A DNA stretch of 46,439 bases from Hyphomicrobiales bacterium (GTDB lineage: Bacteria; Pseudomonadota; Alphaproteobacteria; Rhizobiales; Rhizobiaceae). Positions 13,326 through 23,368 of this stretch are shown here, piece after piece (position 1 is the first letter of the stretch; each line of letters starts with the position of its first letter). A program made the translations under genes and the position numbers. The notes under the pieces were generated by a model. That model was given only the letters and a program-made list of their open reading frames with translations. It searched no databases and was not told the origin of the DNA. Location: positions 1-46,439 of the forward strand of contig UBMP01000012.1 of the NCBI GenBank assembly GCA_900466575.1, given 5' to 3'.

Positions 13326-13820
13326 GGCGCGTTGAATAGGGCGCCCGGGAGTTACATCCGCATATTTACCAACGGCGGCGGTCTCGCTCGCCGTCTTGGT
13401 TTCGCCATCCCCATCGGTGGCAACAAGACCACGAGGGTGATCTGTAGCGAACAATCCCGCACGCGTGACCTCGCTGCCCGAAGCCACCGCAAGGAGGGCA
13501 CGCTGCCGGCTGAGAGCATGGACGAGGCGCTGGATGCCGAAATGTCGTGCCGGTTTTGGCTGGGTTGGGCCGGAGGCTGGTCGCAGCAGAACGCAAGCAG
13601 GCCTCGCCATGACAACAGCCGATGCAGTCAAAAAGCCGCGCGAAATGTGAGTTGACAAGGGAGCAGCGGTGCTCAAGTCTGCGATCATGGCTGCATCATA
13701 GCCGGCCTTTCGAACGTGCAGGTAAACTGGCTCTTGCTCATTCTACGGGTAGAGCCGTGATTTTCCGGCGGGGCAAAGACCTCATGGGCAGCAGGCTGGC
13801 CTTCTGATGGGAACCGCCGC
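13326..13820. other. 495-bp interval without a convincing gene
   Basis: Between livF and the fatty acid hydroxylase gene I find no tRNA, known RNA motif or recognisable protein. Reading frames exist on both strands: a minus-strand frame from a possible ATG near 13608 towards livF, and short plus-strand frames. None shows a domain or good ribosome site. The minus-strand frame has a fairly codon-like composition and could be a decayed gene, but this is not demonstrable by eye. Confidence 0.4.
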
Positions 13821-14396
13821 ATGCATTTAAGCAAGCTCAACTATTACAGCGATTTCGTCGTTTATCCTCTGTCTATAATGACATTTGCTCTATTGGGCCT
13901 ATTGCATGCCGGAGGTCGTGGCGCCGAGCTTTGGACACTCCTCTTCTTCGGTTCGATCGTGGCTTGGACGCTGCTCGAGTATCTCCTGCACCGTTTTCTG
14001 TTTCATCATTTTCCCTATGTCAAAGACATGCATGAGCGACACCATGATGCCGAACGGGAATTGCTCGGCACGCCAGTCTGGCTGAGCCTTCTGGCCCATC
14101 TGTTGATCGTCTTTGTCCCGGCTCTTCTCTTGTTCGACTTGAAAGTGGCTACATCCGTTTCGGGAGGAATCATGACCGGCTATCTCTGGTATGTCGTCAC
14201 CCATCACGTGATCCATCACTGGCATGTATCGCATCGCGGGTATCTTTACCGGCTGAAGCGCCGTCATGCGCTGCACCACCATGGCTCGGAAGGCTTCAAC
14301 TTTGGCGTTACGACCGGTATCTGGGATCGCATCTTCCACACGGCGGCAACCGAACATCGTCCAGACAGTCTAGTCTTGGCGTCGGGCAGTCGCTGA
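13821..14396 (+). CDS. Fatty acid hydroxylase/sterol desaturase superfamily membrane protein
   Basis: A 191-residue integral membrane protein of the di-iron oxygenase superfamily. Four hydrophobic stretches (about 12-30, 37-56, 88-108, 112-130) surround histidine clusters that would bind the two irons: HRFLFHH (57-63), HERHH (71-75), HHVIHHWHVSH (about 133-143) and HALHHH near 152-157. The spacing matches the FA_hydroxylase family, which hydroxylates or desaturates lipid chains, sterols or carotenoids with O2. The compact size and the GVTTGIWDRIFHT ending resemble bacterial lipid hydroxylases. The substrate is unknown. It precedes the sugar operon by about 210 bases; a link to lipid modification of the same glycoconjugate is speculative. 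Confidence 0.85.
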   Translation: MHLSKLNYYSDFVVYPLSIMTFALLGLLHAGGRGAELWTLLFFGSIVAWTLLEYLLHRFLFHHFPYVKDMHERHHDAERELLGTPVWLSLLAHLLIVFVPALLLFDLKVATSVSGGIMTGYLWYVVTHHVIHHWHVSHRGYLYRLKRRHALHHHGSEGFNFGVTTGIWDRIFHTAATEHRPDSLVLASGSR

Positions 14397-14607
14397 GTTT
14401 CTCCAGGCCGTAGCTTCAGGATCCGAGGCAGGAGACCTGAAAGCGCATCGCCTACTTGGATGGCCCTCAATCCGCCGATCGCTGAGGCCGCTGATTACCA
14501 GTGCAAAACCGAGCCTTAGCGGTTTCGCTTCGCCCCATTCGGCGCAAGATTGCGAATCAGGCTGCTGAGGCAGCCCGGATGTGCAGTGCCTTGGCGCGGG
14601 GGATCGG

Positions 14608-15378
14608 ATGAAAGCGGTGATTTTGGCTGGCGGCCTTGGCTCGCGCATTGCCGAGGAGACGCATCTGAAGCCGAAGCCTATGATCGAGATCGGCGGCAAG
14701 CCGATCCTCTGGCACATCATGAAGATCTATTACAGCCACGGCATCCGTGATTTCATTATCTGCTGCGGCTTCAAGGGCTATGTGATTAAGGAATATTTCG
14801 CCAATTACGGCCTGCACATGTCCGACATCACCTTCGACCTGTCGGAAAACCGCTTGTTCTTCCATCGCCAGAGCGCGGAAAACTGGCGCGTCACGCTGGT
14901 GGATACCGGCGAAAGCTCGATGACCGGCGGGCGTCTCAAGCGTGTCGCACCGTATCTCGAAGGGGAGGAGGATTTCTGCTTCACCTATGGCGACGGCGTT
15001 GCCGATGTCGATATCTCCGAGACGATCCGCTTCCATAAATCGCACGGCCGCGACGCGACCGTGACAGCTGTCCGCCCGCCCGCCCGCTTCGGCGCGCTGC
15101 GCTTCGAAGGCGATGACGTGAAGGGCTTTGTCGAGAAACCGGAGGGCGAGGGCGGCTTCATCAATGGCGGCTTCTTTGTCCTCTCGACGAAGGTTCTCTC
15201 CCGCATCGCCGGCGACCAGACATCCTGGGAGGCCGAGCCGTTGACGGGGCTTGCAGAGGATGGCCAGCTCAAGGCGTTCTTCCACAATGGCTTCTGGCAG
15301 CCGATGGACACCTTGCGCGACAAGATCCAGCTCGAAGCCATGTGGGAAGGCGGCACGCCTCCCTGGAAGAAGTGGTAG
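14608..15378 (+). CDS. rfbF: Glucose-1-phosphate cytidylyltransferase
   Basis: A 256-residue nucleotidyltransferase that makes CDP-glucose from CTP and glucose 1-phosphate, the entry point to CDP-linked deoxysugars. The N-terminal nucleotide loop LAGGLGSRIAEET (residues 6-18), KPKPMIEIGGKPILWHIM, the metal aspartate in YGDGVADVD, FINGGFF and the terminus PMDTLRDKIQLEAMWEGG are specific to the RfbF branch, not to UDP- or dTDP-glucose enzymes. The start at 14608 places the Rossmann strand at residue 2; a GTG at 14581 is not needed. It leads a seven-gene operon. The usual partner CDP-glucose 4,6-dehydratase (rfbG) is not seen in the window. Confidence 0.93.
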   Translation: MKAVILAGGLGSRIAEETHLKPKPMIEIGGKPILWHIMKIYYSHGIRDFIICCGFKGYVIKEYFANYGLHMSDITFDLSENRLFFHRQSAENWRVTLVDTGESSMTGGRLKRVAPYLEGEEDFCFTYGDGVADVDISETIRFHKSHGRDATVTAVRPPARFGALRFEGDDVKGFVEKPEGEGGFINGGFFVLSTKVLSRIAGDQTSWEAEPLTGLAEDGQLKAFFHNGFWQPMDTLRDKIQLEAMWEGGTPPWKKW

Positions 15379-15382
15379 CCGG

Positions 15383-15958
15383 ATGTCCTCTATCGCGGGG
15401 AAACGTTTCCTGATCGAGCCCGCCGCGATTGCCGGCGTCTATACCGTGACACGGCGGCGGCTCACCGATGAGCGTGGCTTCCTCTCGCGTCTCTTCGAGC
15501 CGGAAGAGCTGGCGTTGGCCGGCTGGCGCGGCCCTGTCGCCCAGATCAACGAGACAGGGACAGCCCGTATGGGCACCGTGCGCGGCCTGCATTACCAGAC
15601 CCCGCCCCACGCCGAGATGAAGCTCGTTTCCTGCATCGCAGGGCGCATATTTGATGTCGCCGTTGACTTACGTAAGTCATCGCCGACTTATTTGCGGTCG
15701 GTCGCGCTAGAGCTTTCTGCCGAGAACGGCCGGGCTTTGCTGATCCCCGAAGGCTGTGCCCATGGTTTTCAGGCGCTGACGGATGATGTCCGGATGATCT
15801 ATCTCCACTCCGCTCTCTATGCCGCAGCGCATGAGGGTGGCCTGGATGCGCTCGATCCGGCGCTGGAGATTGACTGGCCGCTGCCGGTCGTCAACCGCTC
15901 GCCGCGCGACGAGGCGCTGCCGCGGGTCGCATCAGGTTTCAAAGGAATTGGGCCATGA
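15383..15958 (+). CDS. dTDP-4-dehydrorhamnose 3,5-epimerase-like protein (RmlC family)
   Basis: A 191-residue cupin of the RmlC family, which epimerises C3 and/or C5 of nucleotide-linked 4-keto-6-deoxy sugars. Key features are DERGFLSRLF near residue 30, the catalytic histidine in RGLHYQTPPHAEMKLV, FDVAVDLRKSSPTY, IPEGCAHGFQAL and the tyrosine in YLHSALYAAAHE at the position of the catalytic acid. Next to rfbF, its substrate is more likely a CDP-4-keto-6-deoxy sugar than dTDP-rhamnose precursor; this is inference. It starts 4 bases after rfbF and its stop overlaps the next start. Confidence 0.9.
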   Translation: MSSIAGKRFLIEPAAIAGVYTVTRRRLTDERGFLSRLFEPEELALAGWRGPVAQINETGTARMGTVRGLHYQTPPHAEMKLVSCIAGRIFDVAVDLRKSSPTYLRSVALELSAENGRALLIPEGCAHGFQALTDDVRMIYLHSALYAAAHEGGLDALDPALEIDWPLPVVNRSPRDEALPRVASGFKGIGP

Positions 15959-17184
15959 AATGCCGGCATTGCGGGGGCATGCATTTCGCCCCCTTTCTCG
16001 ATCTCGGAACCGCTCCGCCATCCAACTCCTATCTGGGGGAGGCCGATCTCGCCAGGCCGGAGCTCTGGTATCCGCTGATTATCCGCGTCTGCCGCGTCTG
16101 CCTTCTCGTCCAGACCGAGGATTTTGCCGGCCGCGAGACTTTTTTCTCGGAAAGCTACGCCTATTTCTCCTCCTTCTCGCAGAGCTGGCTTTCCCATGCC
16201 GAGCGTTATGTCGGCGAGATGGTTGAGCGCTTCGATCTTGGGTCGCAATCCCATGTGGTGGAAATCGCCGCCAACGATGGCTATCTCCTGCAATATGTGA
16301 AGGCGCGCGGCATTGCCTGCCTCGGCGTGGAGCCGACGAAGAGCACTGCGACGGCGGCCCGCGCGAAGGGGATCGAGATCGTTGAGGATTTCTTTGGCGT
16401 GGAGCTTGCCGAGAAGCTGGTCGTGCAAGGCCGGCAGGCCGATCTGATCGCGGCCAATAATGTTCTCGCCCATGTGCCGGAGATCAACGATTTCGTCTCC
16501 GGCTTCGCCCGCCTTCTGAAGCCGGACGGCGTGGCGACCTTCGAGTTCCCGCATATCCTCAACATGATGGCCGAGAAGCAGTTCGACACGGCTTACCATG
16601 AGCATTTCTCCTATCTCTCCCTTCTCGCCGTTGCCCGCATCTTCGCGGCCAACGGTCTCCGGGTGTTCGATGTCGAGAAGACCCCTTGGCATGGCGGTTC
16701 GCTGCGTGTCTTTGCCTGTCGCGCCGCAAGCGCCGCGCATGCCTTGAGCGCTAATGTAAAGGCCGTGCTCGATGAGGAGAGGTCTGCAGGGCTCGATCGC
16801 GCGGAAACCTATGCGTCCATGCAGGACGCGGCGCTTCAGGTTCGCGACGCCTTCCTGGATTTCCTGATCGATGCGCGGCGCAAGGGGCTGCGCGTGGCGG
16901 CCTACGGCGCGGCGGCCAAGGGCAACACGCTGCTGAATTTTGCGGGTGTGAAGTCCGATCTCATTGCGGCCGTTGCAGACAGGAATCCGGCGAAGCAGGG
17001 CCATTACATGCCCGGAAGCCGTATTCGCATCGTGGACGAAGAGGCGCTGCTGGCGCTGCGTCCGGAAAGGGTTGTGATACTGCCATGGAATCTCAAGGAA
17101 GAGATCATGCGTCAGCTTTCCTCTATCAGAGACTGGGGTGGGAAATTCGTGACGGCAATCCCCACGTTGACGATCCACGAGTGA
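15955..17184 (+). CDS. SAM-dependent sugar C-methyltransferase (TylC3/NovU/EvaC type)
   Basis: A 409-residue methyltransferase of the family that adds a methyl branch to C3 (or C5) of nucleotide-bound keto-deoxysugars. Order: an N-terminal zinc-type domain with C3/C6 and C46/C49, a Rossmann SAM domain (VVEIAANDGYLLQY, about residue 100), the conserved HEHFSYLS catalytic region near 215-225, and a C-terminal Rossmann-like domain (VAAYGAAAKGNTLLNF, ILPWNLKEEIMRQL). These match Methyltransf_13/14-type C-methyltransferases. The ATG overlaps the upstream stop (ATGA). Together with rfbF and an epimerase it points to a branched-chain CDP-sugar. Confidence 0.92.
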   Translation: MKCRHCGGMHFAPFLDLGTAPPSNSYLGEADLARPELWYPLIIRVCRVCLLVQTEDFAGRETFFSESYAYFSSFSQSWLSHAERYVGEMVERFDLGSQSHVVEIAANDGYLLQYVKARGIACLGVEPTKSTATAARAKGIEIVEDFFGVELAEKLVVQGRQADLIAANNVLAHVPEINDFVSGFARLLKPDGVATFEFPHILNMMAEKQFDTAYHEHFSYLSLLAVARIFAANGLRVFDVEKTPWHGGSLRVFACRAASAAHALSANVKAVLDEERSAGLDRAETYASMQDAALQVRDAFLDFLIDARRKGLRVAAYGAAAKGNTLLNFAGVKSDLIAAVADRNPAKQGHYMPGSRIRIVDEEALLALRPERVVILPWNLKEEIMRQLSSIRDWGGKFVTAIPTLTIHE

Positions 17185-17269
17185 CCGAGGACGCGCCGGA
17201 CGCGAGGCCGGCGAAACTGCGCAAGAAGCGGACGATCGCTGCGCCCGACGTGGCACTGGAGCTTCCGGC

Positions 17270-18466
17270 CTGACATCCGCTCGCGCTCTTTCGATCTGCG
17301 TTCCTTCCCGCAATCGGCAATTCTATTTTCAGAAGACGGTCCGCGCGCTTCTCGCCTCGAAGCGTCGCGACATCGAGTTTGTCCTGACGGACAATTCCGA
17401 CGACCCGTCGATCATGGATGCCTTCATGGCGACGGTCGCCGATGACCTGCGCATCGGCTATCTCCGCTCGCTGGAAAAGCCTCTGTCGATGGTCGACAAC
17501 TGGGAGCGTACCATGGCAGCGGCGACCGGTCGCTGGGTCGCCTTCATCGGAGACGACGATTACATCGATCCTGACGTGGCCGACCTGATCGCGGCCGTGG
17601 AAGCGCGCATTCCCGATGTGGATGCGATCGCCTGGAACAGACTCACCTTTCATTGGCCGGGTGCGCGGGCGCAGGGGATGCAGACCGCAATTCCGACCGG
17701 GTGCCAGATCGTTGAAGTTGCCCGTGACGATCTCATGCGCAAGACTTTCGGCTGGGAGGGGGCGGGCCGTGTGCCGACCTTCATGTTCTCGGCCTATCAC
17801 GCTGCCGTTCGGCGCGATCTGGCTGAGGAAAACCGCACCCGCTTCGGCAATCGCTATTTCGAACATCCGATCGTCGATCAGGACAGCGCCTTCAAGATCA
17901 TCGCGACGGCGAGGCGCTTCGTCTTTTCCGAACGCCCCTTCTCGGTTCTCGGCACATGTCCGAAAAGCAATTCGGCCGCTATCGGCCGCGCTGAAGACAG
18001 CGCGCGCCGCCACGCCGAGTTCATGGTCGATCTCGGCCGCAACCTGGATGACGATCCGCAGATGGCGGATTTTCCGTTTCCCTCCGCCTATGGCGTCACG
18101 GCCTCGGTGGCTGTCAGTCAACATTGGTTCAGAAAGACTTACGGCTTGAGGCACGATGGCTGGGAGGAAAACTATGCCCGCTCCTGCGCCCTCGATTGCC
18201 AGTCGGCGGCAACGCGGGACGATTTCGAGATTATCCGCGCCCGTTACGAGGCGGGCTTCCGGGTCTGGCACGGCGGCCGCTACCTCCCGTTCTTCAACCC
18301 GATATTTTCCGAACCGGTCGAGGCGAGCGGACCCGCCTTCACCGGTGTGACGCCGCTTCTGGTCCATCTGGGCGAGGACTTCGCGGGCGCTGCAACGCCG
18401 CGCGAACTCTATGATGCCGCAGCCGGGATGATGACTCCGCCCGGTGAGATCCCGGTCTCGCTTTGA
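17270..18466 (+). CDS. GT2-like glycosyltransferase, start unresolved or frameshifted
   Basis: A glycosyltransferase-A fold protein of about 398 residues if read from 17270. The N-terminal domain has SICVPSRNRQFYFQKT, the strand end FVLTDNSDD and a DDD-type metal motif in WVAFIGDDDYIDPDV, as in family 2. The C-terminal half matches the minus-strand protein at 22271-23368. The first ATG in this frame (17414) lies inside the GT2 domain, and no ATG, GTG or TTG occurs between the upstream in-frame stop (17168-17170) and 17414. A GTG at 17181 overlapping the preceding stop (GTGA) opens another frame for 30 codons, ending at 17273. So either a one-base frameshift lies near 17230-17275 or translation begins at CTG 17270. 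The coordinate given is that CTG. Confidence 0.75.
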   Translation: MTSARALSICVPSRNRQFYFQKTVRALLASKRRDIEFVLTDNSDDPSIMDAFMATVADDLRIGYLRSLEKPLSMVDNWERTMAAATGRWVAFIGDDDYIDPDVADLIAAVEARIPDVDAIAWNRLTFHWPGARAQGMQTAIPTGCQIVEVARDDLMRKTFGWEGAGRVPTFMFSAYHAAVRRDLAEENRTRFGNRYFEHPIVDQDSAFKIIATARRFVFSERPFSVLGTCPKSNSAAIGRAEDSARRHAEFMVDLGRNLDDDPQMADFPFPSAYGVTASVAVSQHWFRKTYGLRHDGWEENYARSCALDCQSAATRDDFEIIRARYEAGFRVWHGGRYLPFFNPIFSEPVEASGPAFTGVTPLLVHLGEDFAGAATPRELYDAAAGMMTPPGEIPVSL

Positions 18467-18585
18467 GAACCCTCGAAGTATTGGTTGCCAGTCTCGGGCA
18501 AGACATGCCGTCTAATGTGAAAATATGCTAATTGTCATGTCGCCGGCGAATCGCAGATCCGGCGCGCTTTGGGAACCAAGGGGCC

Positions 18586-20259
18586 ATGGTCGAAAACGAT
18601 GTGAAGATCGCGGGACGCAAGCTGCTTCTGGTGGTGTTGCCCTATATTGTCGACAACAGCAAGAACACGAATACCAAGGTCAAGAGCGTCCGTTCGTTCC
18701 TCGCCTTTCCCTATGGTGTTCTGACAATTGCCTCCCATATCCGCAAAGCCTCCGGCGGACTGCATGACGCGGAAATTCTGGATCTGAATATTCCCAGTCC
18801 GCTGGGCGAGGCGGAGCGGCTGCGCCAGGCGCTCGCCCGTGGCGATGTCGATGTCGTGGGCTTCTCCATGTCCTACGACATTTCCTTCGGCTGGCTGAAG
18901 CGCCTGTCCGCGCTGGTCCGCGAGGGCTTTCCGAGCCTCGTTCAGGTTGTTGGTGGCCCCGCGGTGACCACAGGTTTCAAGGACATGATCGAAGAGGGCG
19001 TGAATGTCGATGCCTTCTGCTTTTCGGAAGGTGAGGCCGGGCTGCTGAAGCTTCTGAACGCGGCCGACATGACCAGCGCCTTCGACGGCAATCCATGGAT
19101 CCGCAACACATCCGAAAGCCTGACGAAGGCGCGCCCGCATGCCGTTACCGAGGACCTCGATCTGGTCATCGACGTCGATTACGAGCTGGTCGATGTCCCC
19201 GCCTATTCGATGCGCGAGGCCTTCTCGCCCTTCGTCAAATATACATCCGGGTCGAAGCAGTTCTTCCTGGTGACGTCGCGCGGCTGTCCGTTCAAGTGCA
19301 ATTTCTGCGCGGAGCCCTCCTTCCACGGCGCGTCCATGCGCTACGCCTCGGTCGATCTGATCATCGATCATGTCCGCAAGCTGGTCGACAATTACGGTCT
19401 CAACGTGCTGACCATCTATGATGATCAGCTGCTTCTCAATCGCGACCGCGCCAAGGATCTGTTCCGCAAGCTCGCCCAGTTCAACATCCGCGTCGAAATG
19501 CCGAATGGCGTCACCATGTCCTATATCGATGAGGAAATGGCCTATCTGATGCGGCGTGCCGGGGTGGACACGATTTTTCTCGCCATCGAATCCGGCTCGA
19601 AGCGTGTGCTGAAGGAGATCATCTTCAAGCCGATCTCCTTCTCCCGCATCAAGCCGACAGTGGAGCTCCTGCAGGCAAACGGCATCTTTACCTGTGCCTT
19701 CTTCGTCCTCGGTCTTCCCGGCGAGACGGATGCCGAGCGTGAGGAGACCCGTCAGTTCATCCTGGACACGGGCTTCGACTGGGCGTTCTTCAACTACGCC
19801 ACGCCGCTGCGGGGCAGTGCCCTGTTCGAACAGTGCAAGCGCGAAGGCTGGCTTGCGCCGGAGCATCAGCGTATCGGCACGATCGACATGACCGACTACG
19901 TCATCAATGCGCCGGGAATAGACAAGGTTGCGCTCAAGCGTTTCCTGTTCGACCTCAACCTCGAGGCCAATTTCGTCAAGAACCGCAATCTGCGCGAAGG
20001 CAATTTCGATCTCGCGGCGACGACCTTCAGGGAAGTCATCAACCGTCACGAATCGCAGCCGTTCGCCCACTACTTCCTGGCTGAAGCCTATACGGGCATG
20101 GGCCCCGAGCATCAGCGTCTTGCTTCTGCACATTATCGTCGCTTCCTTGAAATTACGGATGCCGATGCCGAATGGGCCGATCACGCCGCCCGCTACGGGC
20201 TCGACTTTTCGCGGACTATCCCGCTGCCAGCGATCGAGGGCGTCAACGCCGGCGCATGA
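18586..20259 (+). CDS. Radical SAM protein with B12-binding-like N-terminus and TPR-like tail
   Basis: A 557-residue protein. Residues about 10-150 look like the Rossmann-type cobalamin-binding domain common in this class (KLLLVVLPYI, FPYGVLTIASHIRK, DVVGFSMSYD, VQVVGGPAVTTGF). The classical DxHxxG cobalamin motif is not evident. The radical SAM core follows, with cluster cysteines C234, C238 and C241 in RGCPFKCNFC and the strand IFLAIESGSKRVL. The C-terminal 100 residues contain TPR-like helices (NFDLAATTFREVINRH, FAHYFLAEAYTGMG). Such enzymes perform methylations or rearrangements on unreactive carbons. The substrate is unknown; its place in a sugar operon suggests a sugar or lipid-linked glycan. 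The start at 18586 has AAGGGG just upstream. The stop overlaps the next start. Confidence 0.9.
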   Translation: MVENDVKIAGRKLLLVVLPYIVDNSKNTNTKVKSVRSFLAFPYGVLTIASHIRKASGGLHDAEILDLNIPSPLGEAERLRQALARGDVDVVGFSMSYDISFGWLKRLSALVREGFPSLVQVVGGPAVTTGFKDMIEEGVNVDAFCFSEGEAGLLKLLNAADMTSAFDGNPWIRNTSESLTKARPHAVTEDLDLVIDVDYELVDVPAYSMREAFSPFVKYTSGSKQFFLVTSRGCPFKCNFCAEPSFHGASMRYASVDLIIDHVRKLVDNYGLNVLTIYDDQLLLNRDRAKDLFRKLAQFNIRVEMPNGVTMSYIDEEMAYLMRRAGVDTIFLAIESGSKRVLKEIIFKPISFSRIKPTVELLQANGIFTCAFFVLGLPGETDAEREETRQFILDTGFDWAFFNYATPLRGSALFEQCKREGWLAPEHQRIGTIDMTDYVINAPGIDKVALKRFLFDLNLEANFVKNRNLREGNFDLAATTFREVINRHESQPFAHYFLAEAYTGMGPEHQRLASAHYRRFLEITDADAEWADHAARYGLDFSRTIPLPAIEGVNAGA

Positions 20260-21098
20260 GCAAGGTCTTCCTCACTGGCGCGAGTGGGTTTGTGGGTCGG
20301 CAGATCCTCAAGCAGCTGCTTGCCGCTGGCCATGAGGTGACGGTCGCGGCGCGCCCGGGCAGTTTGCTCCGCGCCGGCATCCCGACCAGTCATGTGAACG
20401 TCGTTCTCACGCGCGATCTGTTCGCCGAACGCGAAGACTGGTGGACGCGGGCACTCGTGGGTCACGATACGCTCATCCACGCCGCCTGGTATGTCGATCC
20501 GAAAACCTACCAGCGTTCGCGCTACAATTTCATCTGCACGGTCGGCAGTATCGTGATGGCGCGGGCGGCGGCGCGGGCCGGTGTCGGCCACGTCATCGGG
20601 CTCGGAACCTGCATGGAATATCGCCTGCCTTCGACGCGCATCCAGCCCGATGCGCCACTCGGCCCGTCGACCGTCTATTCCGCCGCCAAACTCGCCACCT
20701 ATTTCTCGCTCCGGCGGCATACCGCCCTGGCCGGCCAGCGCTTCACCTGGGCCCGGCTCTTCTATCTTCATGGCGAGGGGGAGCAGCAGGGGCGGCTTGC
20801 ACCCTATATCCGCGATTGTATCGCGCGCGGCGAACATGCCCGGCTCTCAGCCGGCACGCAACTGCGTGACTATCTCGACGTTGCGGAGGCGGGCCGCATG
20901 ATCGCGGCCCTTGCGGATACCCGGCAGACCGGCGTCGTCAACATCTGCTCAGGCCGCCCAACGACCATACGTCTGTTCGCGGAACGGATTGCCGATGCTT
21001 ATGGAAGGCGGGATCTCCTGATCTTCTCAGGTGATCCGATCCCGCCTCATGATCCCGCGGCCGTCGTCGGCGTCTGCAATTGGCAGGCGCCGCAATGA
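20256..21098 (+). CDS. NAD-dependent epimerase/dehydratase family protein (sugar reductase/epimerase)
   Basis: A 280-residue extended short-chain dehydrogenase. The cofactor loop is FLTGASGFVG (G8, G11, G14); the catalytic pair is Y141/K145 in YSAAK, with a GTCMEY segment upstream in place of the usual serine-threonine strand. LRDYLDVAEAG and VVNICSGRPTTIRLFAERI are typical of nucleotide-sugar reductases and epimerases. In this operon it could be the final 4-ketoreductase of the CDP-sugar pathway, or less likely the missing 4,6-dehydratase, although it is shorter than RfbG. It overlaps the genes on both sides (ATGA at 20256 and 21095). Confidence 0.88.
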   Translation: MSKVFLTGASGFVGRQILKQLLAAGHEVTVAARPGSLLRAGIPTSHVNVVLTRDLFAEREDWWTRALVGHDTLIHAAWYVDPKTYQRSRYNFICTVGSIVMARAAARAGVGHVIGLGTCMEYRLPSTRIQPDAPLGPSTVYSAAKLATYFSLRRHTALAGQRFTWARLFYLHGEGEQQGRLAPYIRDCIARGEHARLSAGTQLRDYLDVAEAGRMIAALADTRQTGVVNICSGRPTTIRLFAERIADAYGRRDLLIFSGDPIPPHDPAAVVGVCNWQAPQ

Positions 21099-22321
21099 CC
21101 CAGGCCATTCGCGTGGTGCATCTGGCCGCCCATCTCGGCGGCGGCGTCGGCAAGGCCCACGCGGCGATCCGCGCCGTTGATACTCACGCGGCCGATCATG
21201 TCTACATCTTGCTGGAGCCTGCGCGCGATCGCCGCTACGCGGAGGCGATCGCAGCGACGGGCGCCACAATCATCGAAAAGCCGGCCGAGGACCATTTGCT
21301 CGCGCTTCTGGAAGAGGCGGATGTCGTGCAGGTCGAATTCTGGAACCATCCGCGTCTCTACGAAGCGCTGTCGCGCTTGCCTCTGCCCGCCGGGCGCTAC
21401 CTGTTCTGGTCTCACATCTCAGGTCTCGCTCCGCCGTTGATAGCGGAAGGCTTGACCGAGGCGGCAGAGATTTTCGCCTACACCTCCGCTTGCTCGCTGG
21501 CCCGGTCGGCCACCGGCGATCTGCGCGTTATCGGCAGCGGCTTCGGGCTGAACGACCCGCCGAAGCGAAGGCCGCTGGGCGCGGAACCGCGGGGCGGTTA
21601 TCTCGGCACGGTGGATTTCGTGAAGATGAGCCCGGACTTTTTCTCGATCATTGATGCAGTCGAGGGGCCGCATTTCGAGATCGCCGTCTATGGCGCCTTC
21701 GATCCGGAAGGTGGTCCGGCACGCGCGCATGCTTCCATGCGGCATCCGGAACGTGTCAGAATGATGGGTCAGACGGACGACCCGGCGCACGCGCTCGCCG
21801 GTTTGGACTTCTTCTTTTATCCGCTCGCTCGCAACCATTTCGGCACCGCGGAAAATGCGCTTGTCGAGGCCATGTCGGCGGGTCTTGCGCCACTCGTTCT
21901 CAACAATCCTGCCGAGCGCGCCATCGTCACCGATGGTGCGACAGGACTCGTTGCAGAAGGCGCGGAGGACTGCGTGCGGGCGCTGACCCGGCTGCTAACC
22001 GAGCCTTCATTGCGGGAGAAGCTGGGCGACGCTGCAGCGGTGGAGGCCAGCCGCCTGTTCCGCCCGGAAGTATCGCGGGCGGATTTTTCAGCGGCCTACG
22101 CTGACCTGATGCTGCGCGCCAAAAAACTACCTGATTTTGCCGCCGCGCTTGGCCGCAATCCGCTCGACTGGTTTCTCGGCAGCTTCCCGCAGGGAGCCGT
22201 GGCTGCGGAAGGCAAGCCTTCCAAGGGCAGCCTCGCGCATTTCCTGGCCTGTTTTCCGGATGACGAAGACTTAAATCGCAGTGCCCGCGCCGCAGATGAG
22301 GCGAACGGGTGCGAGGAATGA
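21095..22321 (+). CDS. Glycosyltransferase, GT4-like (GT-B fold)
   Basis: A 408-residue cytoplasmic glycosyltransferase. The N-terminus has the glycine-rich VVHLAAHLGGGVGKAH loop. The C-terminal domain carries HFGTAENALVEAMSAGLAPLVLNN, the E-x7-E-type donor motif of family 4, followed by TDGATGLVAEGAEDCVRAL. It probably transfers a sugar, possibly the one made by the upstream genes, onto a surface glycan. The start overlaps the preceding stop (ATGA). The last 51 bases overlap the 3' end of the convergent gene on the other strand. The C-terminal tail beyond about residue 350 is Ala-rich and not obviously part of the fold. Confidence 0.88.
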   Translation: MTQAIRVVHLAAHLGGGVGKAHAAIRAVDTHAADHVYILLEPARDRRYAEAIAATGATIIEKPAEDHLLALLEEADVVQVEFWNHPRLYEALSRLPLPAGRYLFWSHISGLAPPLIAEGLTEAAEIFAYTSACSLARSATGDLRVIGSGFGLNDPPKRRPLGAEPRGGYLGTVDFVKMSPDFFSIIDAVEGPHFEIAVYGAFDPEGGPARAHASMRHPERVRMMGQTDDPAHALAGLDFFFYPLARNHFGTAENALVEAMSAGLAPLVLNNPAERAIVTDGATGLVAEGAEDCVRALTRLLTEPSLREKLGDAAAVEASRLFRPEVSRADFSAAYADLMLRAKKLPDFAAALGRNPLDWFLGSFPQGAVAAEGKPSKGSLAHFLACFPDDEDLNRSARAADEANGCEE

Positions 22322-23368
22322 GCGCATGACGCGGTAGAAATCCTGCGCTGTCCGTGCCTTGCCGATGAAGCGGTCGACCATCAGCATATTGCCATGCAGC
22401 CCGCGCCGGATATCCGGTTGTTGCGGTCCCGCATAATACGGCTGGAAGAGATGGGCATGTCGCCCGCCGTCCCAGGCGCGGAACGCCTTGTCATAGGCCT
22501 CGCATTTTGCCGCGAAGGTTTCTTCGTCGGTCTCCAGCAGGCAATCGATCGTGGCGGCGCGCACGAAGGCATCTTCGGCGCCCGGGCCCCAGGGCGCTCC
22601 CATTTCCATGAAGACGGCGTTCTGTACCTCTGCGATGCCGGCGGTCTCGCCAATCCCCGCATGGAAGGGAAAGCCGGGCGTTGGGATTCCGGCCGGGTCG
22701 GGGGAGAAGCGTTGCTTGGCGATGATCGACATCGGCCTCTCGCAAAAGGCAAGCTCATTCGCCATGAAGATCGTCCGCGCCTGCCACTCGGCAGCAGGGA
22801 GCGGCGAAACGCGACCGGACGCGCGGAGGCTTTCGACAATGGTCAGTGCCAGCTGACGCTTCAGCGCGCCGTGATGGAGCCCGAAGGGCATGCGGGGAAT
22901 GTTCAGACTGTTTTCCCACATGAAGAAGGCCTTCAGCATGACAGTCTTGTCGATGTTGACGATGGCATACTGGCTCGGAACGCCGACGGAGAAGCGCCGA
23001 TCCGGGGGATCATTCGCATCGATCTGCAGCGTGTGCCAGGAGAGCGCATCGGCGGCGGGATTGGCCTCGCCCACAAACCCGACCATGATGGCAAGCTCGG
23101 GCTCCAGCATGTCGTCGGGCTTGACGAGCGTGACCCAGTCGCCAGTGGAAGCCGATACCAGCGCCGACCAGATCGTCTGCTGCGGCGTGCTCGGCGGCAT
23201 GGTCGGCAGAAGCCTCAGGCGCGGATCGTCAGCGGCTGGACCATCGCCGTTCTCTAAAGTCACGATTTCGAGATCAAGCGAAGGATCGGCCAGAAGGGCA
23301 CCGAGAAGAGCCGCAAGGCCGCTCTCGGGTGCTTGGGCAGGCGGTATAAGGACCGACAGACGAGGCAT
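22271..23368 (-). CDS. GT2-like glycosyltransferase, homologue of the protein at 17270-18466
   Basis: A 365-residue protein with the layout of the plus-strand GT2-like protein: N-terminal strand LSVLIPP, a GDWVTLVKPDDMLEPE segment aligned with GRWVAFIGDDDYIDPD, FCERPMSIIAKQRFSPD aligned with FSERPFSVLGTCPKSN, and a shared C-terminal pattern (YDKAFRAWDGGRHAHLFQP versus YEAGFRVWHGGRYLPFFNP). Two of the three metal-motif acids remain, so activity is plausible but not certain. It converges on the operon and overlaps its last gene by 51 bases. It probably acts in the same glycan pathway. GGAG-like sequence precedes the ATG. Confidence 0.82.
   Translation of the reverse strand: MPRLSVLIPPAQAPESGLAALLGALLADPSLDLEIVTLENGDGPAADDPRLRLLPTMPPSTPQQTIWSALVSASTGDWVTLVKPDDMLEPELAIMVGFVGEANPAADALSWHTLQIDANDPPDRRFSVGVPSQYAIVNIDKTVMLKAFFMWENSLNIPRMPFGLHHGALKRQLALTIVESLRASGRVSPLPAAEWQARTIFMANELAFCERPMSIIAKQRFSPDPAGIPTPGFPFHAGIGETAGIAEVQNAVFMEMGAPWGPGAEDAFVRAATIDCLLETDEETFAAKCEAYDKAFRAWDGGRHAHLFQPYYAGPQQPDIRRGLHGNMLMVDRFIGKARTAQDFYRVMRSFLAPVRLICGAGTAI

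Follow-up and report, generated by a model that had tools for sequence, protein, structure and literature searches.

We analysed a stretch of 46,439 nucleotides from a Rhizobiaceae bacterium (hereafter the window), which carries at positions 14608-23368 a cluster of genes for a predicted cytidine diphosphate (CDP)-sugar pathway. The stretch corresponds to contig 32 of genome G000 (5.14 Mb in 44 contigs, 99.99% completeness). The core of the cluster is ordinary, and it comes with two real oddities: rfbG, the gene for the CDP-glucose 4,6-dehydratase, is repeatedly lost, and this genus has one good candidate for a replacement acting in trans; in addition, an optional radical SAM gene is linked to rfbF across the family. 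All eight genes named in an earlier note on this DNA were located, in the order given there. With two smaller features, the cluster reads as follows:

14608-15378, + strand: rfbF, glucose-1-phosphate cytidylyltransferase (TIGR02623, 439.8 bits for a cut-off of 300.25; the sole match over the cut-off in the genome)
15383-15958, + strand: RmlC-like NDP-4-keto-sugar epimerase (PF00908, E 2.7e-54, 183.8 bits)
15955-17184, + strand: TylC3-type sugar C-methyltransferase, CMT (PF08421, PF13489 and PF08484, the Methyltransf_13/23/14 architecture)
17181-17273, + strand: putative 30-codon open reading frame bridging CMT and GT2a, with an NTGA overlap at both ends
17270-18466, + strand: GT2a, GT2-type glycosyltransferase with a probable CTG start (PDB glycosyltransferase 3bcv, E 3.5e-7)
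18487-18504, + strand: conserved intergenic element GCCAGTCTCGGGCAAGAC (sole match in the window, 0.04 expected)
18586-20259, + strand: class B (B12-binding-type) radical SAM protein, rSAM (PF04055, E 4.3e-25; PF02310, E 2.2e-11)
20256-21098, + strand: short-chain dehydrogenase/reductase, SDR, probable 4-ketoreductase (PF01370, E 4.4e-25)
21095-22321, + strand: GT4-type glycosyltransferase (PF00534, E 3.6e-11)
22271-23368, - strand: GT2b, a convergent homologue of GT2a (no Pfam match by itself)

The genes had been described as one overlapping operon. Three 4-base overlaps are indeed present (rmlC/CMT, rSAM/SDR and SDR/GT4), but a 119-base gap splits GT2a from rSAM. The whole cluster was found again in the same order in two further genomes of the genus, which excludes a chance arrangement, and the cluster together with its flanks matches Rhizobium sp. 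C1 (L009). The cluster-bearing members of the genus are the window's genome, G117 (Rhizobium sp. C1), G187, G014 and G293; the sixth member, G245, has neither rfbF nor CMT. The segment 5' of rfbF (13329-14494) is variable in the genus, with a fatty acid hydroxylase gene in the window and in G187 and a nucleoside-recognition (Gate) gene instead in Rhizobium sp. C1. The GCCAGTCTCGGGCAAGAC element, located 3' of GT2a, has short inverted arms. Its last 17 bases are exactly conserved in four of the five cluster-bearing members (G187, G014 and G293 besides the window) and are not found in G117.

Core enzymes and glycosyltransferases

On family assignments, a C-methylated CDP-deoxysugar and its transfer, as proposed in the earlier note, is the best reading of the cluster. 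CMT is the only PF08421 match of the genome, and its closest PDB entries are a sugar 3-C-methyltransferase (5t64, E 3e-66) and the D-mycarose 3-C-methyltransferase (4rv9, E 1.7e-63). Both CMT and the epimerase belong to the families assigned to them, although the epimerase, at 139.4 bits, stays below the NCBIfam rmlC equivalog cut-off (155.75). It aligns well to NovW (PDB 2c0z, its second-best match), the partner of another C-methyltransferase.

The SDR carries the motifs GTCMEY and YSAAK without the acid/base pair of dehydratases. Its homologues (46-57% identity) share a cluster with a true rfbG in nine genomes of the synteny table (G003, G069, G084, G107, G163, G224, G248, G269 and G289). 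The suggestion that this reductase-like gene could itself be the missing dehydratase was therefore rejected, because it has no Asp-Glu or Asp-Lys pair and because such close homologues sit beside a true rfbG elsewhere. From its sequence, the SDR is probably a 4-ketoreductase. The neighbouring GalE was also discarded as a dehydratase, as its motif (SSTAAVYG) holds no acid/base pair.

For GT2a, none of the ATG, GTG or TTG codons fits the homology as a start. A CTG at 17270, preceded by GGAG, fits best, and the gene probably begins there, behind the 30-codon reading frame. A similar short reading frame is present in the other four cluster-bearing members, and it ends in ELPA in four of the five. 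When searched alone, GT2a returned weak matches only and GT2b no meaningful PDB match; the two proteins are 24-26% identical. A joint profile built from 15 members of the family does reach GT2 enzymes of solved structure, including SpsA and chondroitin synthase, and six of these 15 match Pfam GT2. A search of plasmids with GT2b gave no match, and its structure model was not used (pLDDT 49).

Loss of rfbG and a candidate dehydratase encoded elsewhere

In a survey set of 297 Rhizobiaceae genomes, rfbF over the cut-off was found in 72 and CMT at E 1e-60 or better in 82. The positions of rfbF, rfbG and CMT were compared in those 34 genomes that carry a CMT of 61% identity or more to the one in the window. 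There, rfbG adjoins rfbF in 22 cases, lies elsewhere in the genome in two (G115 and G139) and is not found over the cut-off in ten, among them all five cluster-bearing members of the window's genus. One of the ten, G215, is uninformative, since its operon stands at a contig end with no rfbF match either. The usual order is rfbF-rfbG-rmlC-CMT, and GT2a, a CmcI-like methyltransferase, SDR and GT2b often come next (synteny table); the same gene order is annotated on two Desulfolutivibrio plasmids and one Peteryoungia plasmid. The claim of a pathway of an undescribed kind finds no support, since the same operon with rfbG is this widespread: the core gene set is of an already-known type, common in Rhizobiaceae. 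The literature searched, with few subscription papers within reach, held no characterisation of the window's own cluster.

The absence of rfbG, in contrast, was borne out. At the cut-off of TIGR02622, the gene was found neither in the window nor in the 5.1-Mb genome, and in the genus it is over the cut-off in none of the six members while rfbF is so in five. The rfbG-less genomes are scattered on the CMT tree (this genus; G106; G153; G061 and G178), and sisters or congeners of two of them retain the gene (G236 for G106; G069 and G269 for G153). Judged by this tree, in which the deep branches have weak support, rfbG was apparently lost at least four times in Rhizobiaceae. In G106, the gap between rfbF and rmlC (L162 8480-8840) still codes for an RfbG remnant in which residues 1-68 (62% identity, E 4e-20) are fused to the last 19 with the middle deleted, meaning that rfbG was deleted there. 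No comparably clear RfbG match was seen in the corresponding gap of G153.

Such losses raise the question of whether the route is simply broken, the remaining genes persisting without making sugar. Some features of other rfbG-less genomes fit this idea: besides the deletion remnant, the CMT of G106 has accumulated 18 unique amino-acid changes against seven in its rfbG-keeping sister (binomial p 0.04), and the rfbF of G153 has changed faster in two comparisons (16 against 9 and 10 against 4). However, the CMT of G153 is not accelerated (16 against 18 and 15 against 16). These counts leave out the GT2b of G153, for which non-orthologues were compared, and contain no galE or GT2b value for G139. 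In the window's genus, the remaining cluster genes, among them rfbF, rmlC, CMT and SDR, are under purifying selection: the pairwise ratio of nonsynonymous to synonymous substitution rates (dN/dS) between the window and other members is 0.034-0.170 for the cluster genes, and 0.034-0.077 for rfbF. Such values are not expected from a dead route, and we hold this explanation to be very unlikely.

With rfbG missing, the best TIGR02622 match of the genome is an unlinked gene at 91815-92798 of contig 33 (G000:C33:91815-92798, hereafter the C33 gene), outside the window and between a flippase gene and secA. Its protein carries TTDKVY followed by Yx3K, and the sequence TGATGFLGGWL, close to the TGxTGFxGxW of RfbG. 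According to an excerpt of the review PMC8987622, [ST]DKxnYx3K is the fingerprint of CDP-glucose dehydratases. In our set, [TS]DK was seen in 26 of 28 RfbG sequences (with no readout for G224 and G139), and RmlB-type proteins carry TDE. TTDKVY and YEVAK are present in all five copies of the genus, and SSDKAY in the relative from G226. In a tree, the C33 gene falls outside the RfbG clade, between RfbG and the other families, and the grouping of RfbG with it against the remaining families has 99% ultrafast bootstrap. At E 1e-45, its relatives are found in six of the 297 genomes, namely the five cluster-bearing members of the genus (88-100% identity) and G226 (42%). In G245, the member without the cluster, the flippase gene adjoins secA with no C33-type gene between them. 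The dN/dS of the C33 gene between the window and other members is 0.084-0.118; with the low values of the cluster genes, the route looks still in use. As the earlier note anticipated, the dehydratase is probably encoded elsewhere, and the C33 gene is, by its sequence, the candidate that we can name. A supply in trans has a precedent in G115 and G139, where the true rfbG is located outside the operon.

Taken together, we lean slightly towards the explanation that the locus produces a C-methyl-branched 6-deoxyhexose as a CDP-sugar and transfers it, with a dehydratase supplied in trans, possibly from the C33 gene. Several observations weigh against this. The C33 gene reaches 145.2 bits with TIGR02622, short of the curated cut-off of 278.45, and it scores equally as a dTDP-glucose dehydratase; the same excerpt notes that the [ST]DK fingerprint is common also to some UDP-GlcNAc dehydratases. 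Its co-distribution with the cluster (5/5 members with, 0/1 without) amounts to one evolutionary event in one genus (Fisher p 0.17; over all 297 genomes p 4e-8, uncorrected for kinship), and G226 has a true rfbG in addition. Finally, four other rfbG-less genomes with rfbF-rmlC-CMT (G061, G106, G153 and G178) yield neither a C33 relative at E 1e-45 nor a TIGR02622 match scoring over 105.3 bits, so that the trans-dehydratase solution is not general.

The 4-keto sugar may instead come from a resident dehydratase of another pathway (RmlB or LegB on contig 26, Gmd on contig 28), or CMT and RmlC may act on the sugar of that other nucleotide, the C33 gene then serving another glycan. The RmlB (dTDP-glucose), LegB and Gmd (GDP-mannose) genes of the genome are all over their NCBIfam cut-offs. 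Among the four rfbG-less genomes just named, TIGR02622 at E 1e-20 finds two TDE-type genes in G061 and gives no match in the others; G106 has a gene with a Gmd-type motif and G153 a 503-bit PF16363 match, its motif not read. An excerpt of PMC3539893 proposes that Coxiella virenose is made by way of a TylC3 homologue, starting from GDP- or TDP-sugars. Against this stands rfbF, which is kept and strongly constrained, since unused CDP-glucose would be hard to explain; moreover, none of the six motifs read among the 12 PF16363 matches of G178 is TDE or TDK. We consider a borrowed dehydratase unlikely.

The radical SAM protein

The rSAM protein combines the Radical_SAM and B12-binding domains with a CxxxCxxC motif whose cysteines (C234, C238 and C241) do not vary among 31 aligned sequences. 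This marks it as a class B (B12-binding-type) radical SAM protein and would suit a cobalamin-dependent methyltransferase. Every NCBIfam equivalog scores below its own cut-off, the best at 145 of 575 bits. In a collection of species scanned with exact peptide patterns, which miss relatives at 33-37% identity, a close relative was present only in Rhizobium sp. C1, the other 79 among the best 80 of 137 loci standing at 29% or less. In the survey set, the family occupies nine places in eight genomes: three in the genus (87-100% identity) and six others at 33-37%.

The link of rSAM to the sugar genes, as put forward in the earlier note, stands in part. All eight carrier genomes have rfbF over the cut-off (72/297 overall, p 9e-6); counted by genus, the figures are 5/5 against 45/109 (p 0.01), and CMT is present in six of the eight. 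On the other side, co-occurrence in sugar clusters was seen at four of the nine places (G000, G117, G187 and G003) with the remainder elsewhere, and rSAM is found in three of the five cluster-bearing members of the genus, G014 and G293 having the cluster without it. These results indicate that rSAM is optional yet linked to rfbF across the family. Elsewhere, relatives at 36-37% in G113 (L105 6457-11009) and G009 (L106 8857-11352) are flanked by a cobalamin adenosyltransferase gene on one side and two electron transfer flavoprotein genes on the other, as judged by Pfam in G113 and by look-alike genes only in G009. A second copy in Rhizobium sp. C1 (33%; G117 contig 17, L110 8206-12495) stands between DUF1402 and cytochrome P450 genes.

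The AlphaFold model of rSAM (pLDDT 81) has as its best PDB fold AprD4 (6fd2, E 1.9e-20, TM 0.74 on the target), described in an excerpt of PMC5461906 as a radical diol dehydratase whose partner is the NADPH reductase AprD3. Given the 4-base overlap between the rSAM and SDR genes, the two products could form a pair of the AprD4/AprD3 kind which deoxygenates the sugar, instead of rSAM being an unrelated decorating enzyme. However, rSAM scores 54.7 bits with NF033070 (AprD4) for a cut-off of 500, the fold scores of CysS, TsrM and MgmA come out about equal to that of AprD4, and the SDR is retained where rSAM is absent, which argues for another main role of the SDR. Such a pair seems to us quite unlikely. 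In overall fold, the model resembles AprD4 and the methylases TsrM, TokK, CysS and MgmA, at 14-19% sequence identity. Since AprD4, a dehydratase, shares its fold with methylases, the predicted fold alone cannot decide between the two activities. Brachyspira, in which a radical SAM gene lies between rfbF and rfbC, prompted the idea that rSAM replaces rfbG; this was rejected for the window's genus, since G014 and G293 have neither gene.

Proposed route and comparison with known systems

In the route that we favour, RfbF would make CDP-glucose, and a dehydratase encoded elsewhere, with the C33 gene product as the candidate, would convert it to CDP-4-keto-6-deoxyglucose. CMT would then methylate C-3, C-5 being also possible, the RmlC-like enzyme would epimerise the 4-keto sugar and the SDR would reduce the 4-keto group; we infer this order from the enzyme families. 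GT4, GT2a and GT2b would transfer the sugar or build its acceptor, and rSAM would be an optional enzyme decorating the branched sugar or the glycan that bears it. The destination would most likely be lipopolysaccharide or a related surface glycan. A bolder version is tentative and somewhat unlikely as a whole: a new, non-orthologous family of CDP-glucose 4,6-dehydratases would have replaced rfbG in trans in the window's genus, and class B radical SAM enzymes of a new clade would modify a carbon of the CDP-derived branched sugar, by a second C-methylation or an AprD4-like deoxygenation, as part of a surface glycan in a Gram-negative bacterium.

That an otherwise retained operon has lost rfbG repeatedly means that annotation of CDP-sugar routes by gene neighbourhood can miss a step encoded elsewhere, and here a concrete, testable replacement can be named, the C33 gene. 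If rSAM does act on the sugar, radical chemistry of the antibiotic type would extend to bacterial surface glycans. The three rSAM-bearing and two rSAM-less strains of one genus offer a natural comparison.

A partly similar arrangement exists on the Brachyspira hyodysenteriae plasmid pBHWA1, where rfbF, radical SAM, rfbC, SDR and glycosyltransferase genes stand in a row; a plasmid block near rfbF with these genes (radical SAM, SDR, rfbC, glycosyltransferase) is presented, in an excerpt of PMC4267127, as possibly serving lipooligosaccharide synthesis or glycosylation. The SDR and the glycosyltransferase there are 27% and 24% identical to those of the window. Five radical SAM proteins of pBHWA1 are only weakly like the window's rSAM (best E 4e-5); their identity to a SPASM-type protein of G003 is 33-50%. 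This G003 gene (L108 3376-4596) lies in the same cluster as the G003 rSAM relative, and its own relatives occur in the clusters of G084, G115, G224 and G248. The pBHWA1 stretch compared contains no CMT, yet CMT matches at E 1e-40 come from six plasmid records of Brachyspira, and rfbG is annotated at rfbF on the plasmid of another strain.

In Sinorhizobium meliloti, ddhA, ddhB and a 3-C-methyltransferase gene (SMb21416-21418) are listed together in an excerpt of PMC4053727, and mutations in ddhB are said in an excerpt of PMC5539429 to affect lipopolysaccharide. This locus resembles that of the window in having rfbF and CMT homologues together (CMT 52% identical) and differs from it in having ddhB (rfbG); no relative of rSAM was found in 15 kb there. 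The operons of other Rhizobiaceae, of Peteryoungia desertarenae pPRADMK78_01 and of the Desulfolutivibrio plasmids have the same families in the same order as the window, with CMT 50-73% and rfbF 47-83% identical. Within the compared stretches, G003 alone has a relative of the window's rSAM, together with rfbG but without CMT. Unlike the window, these operons retain rfbG between rfbF and rmlC.

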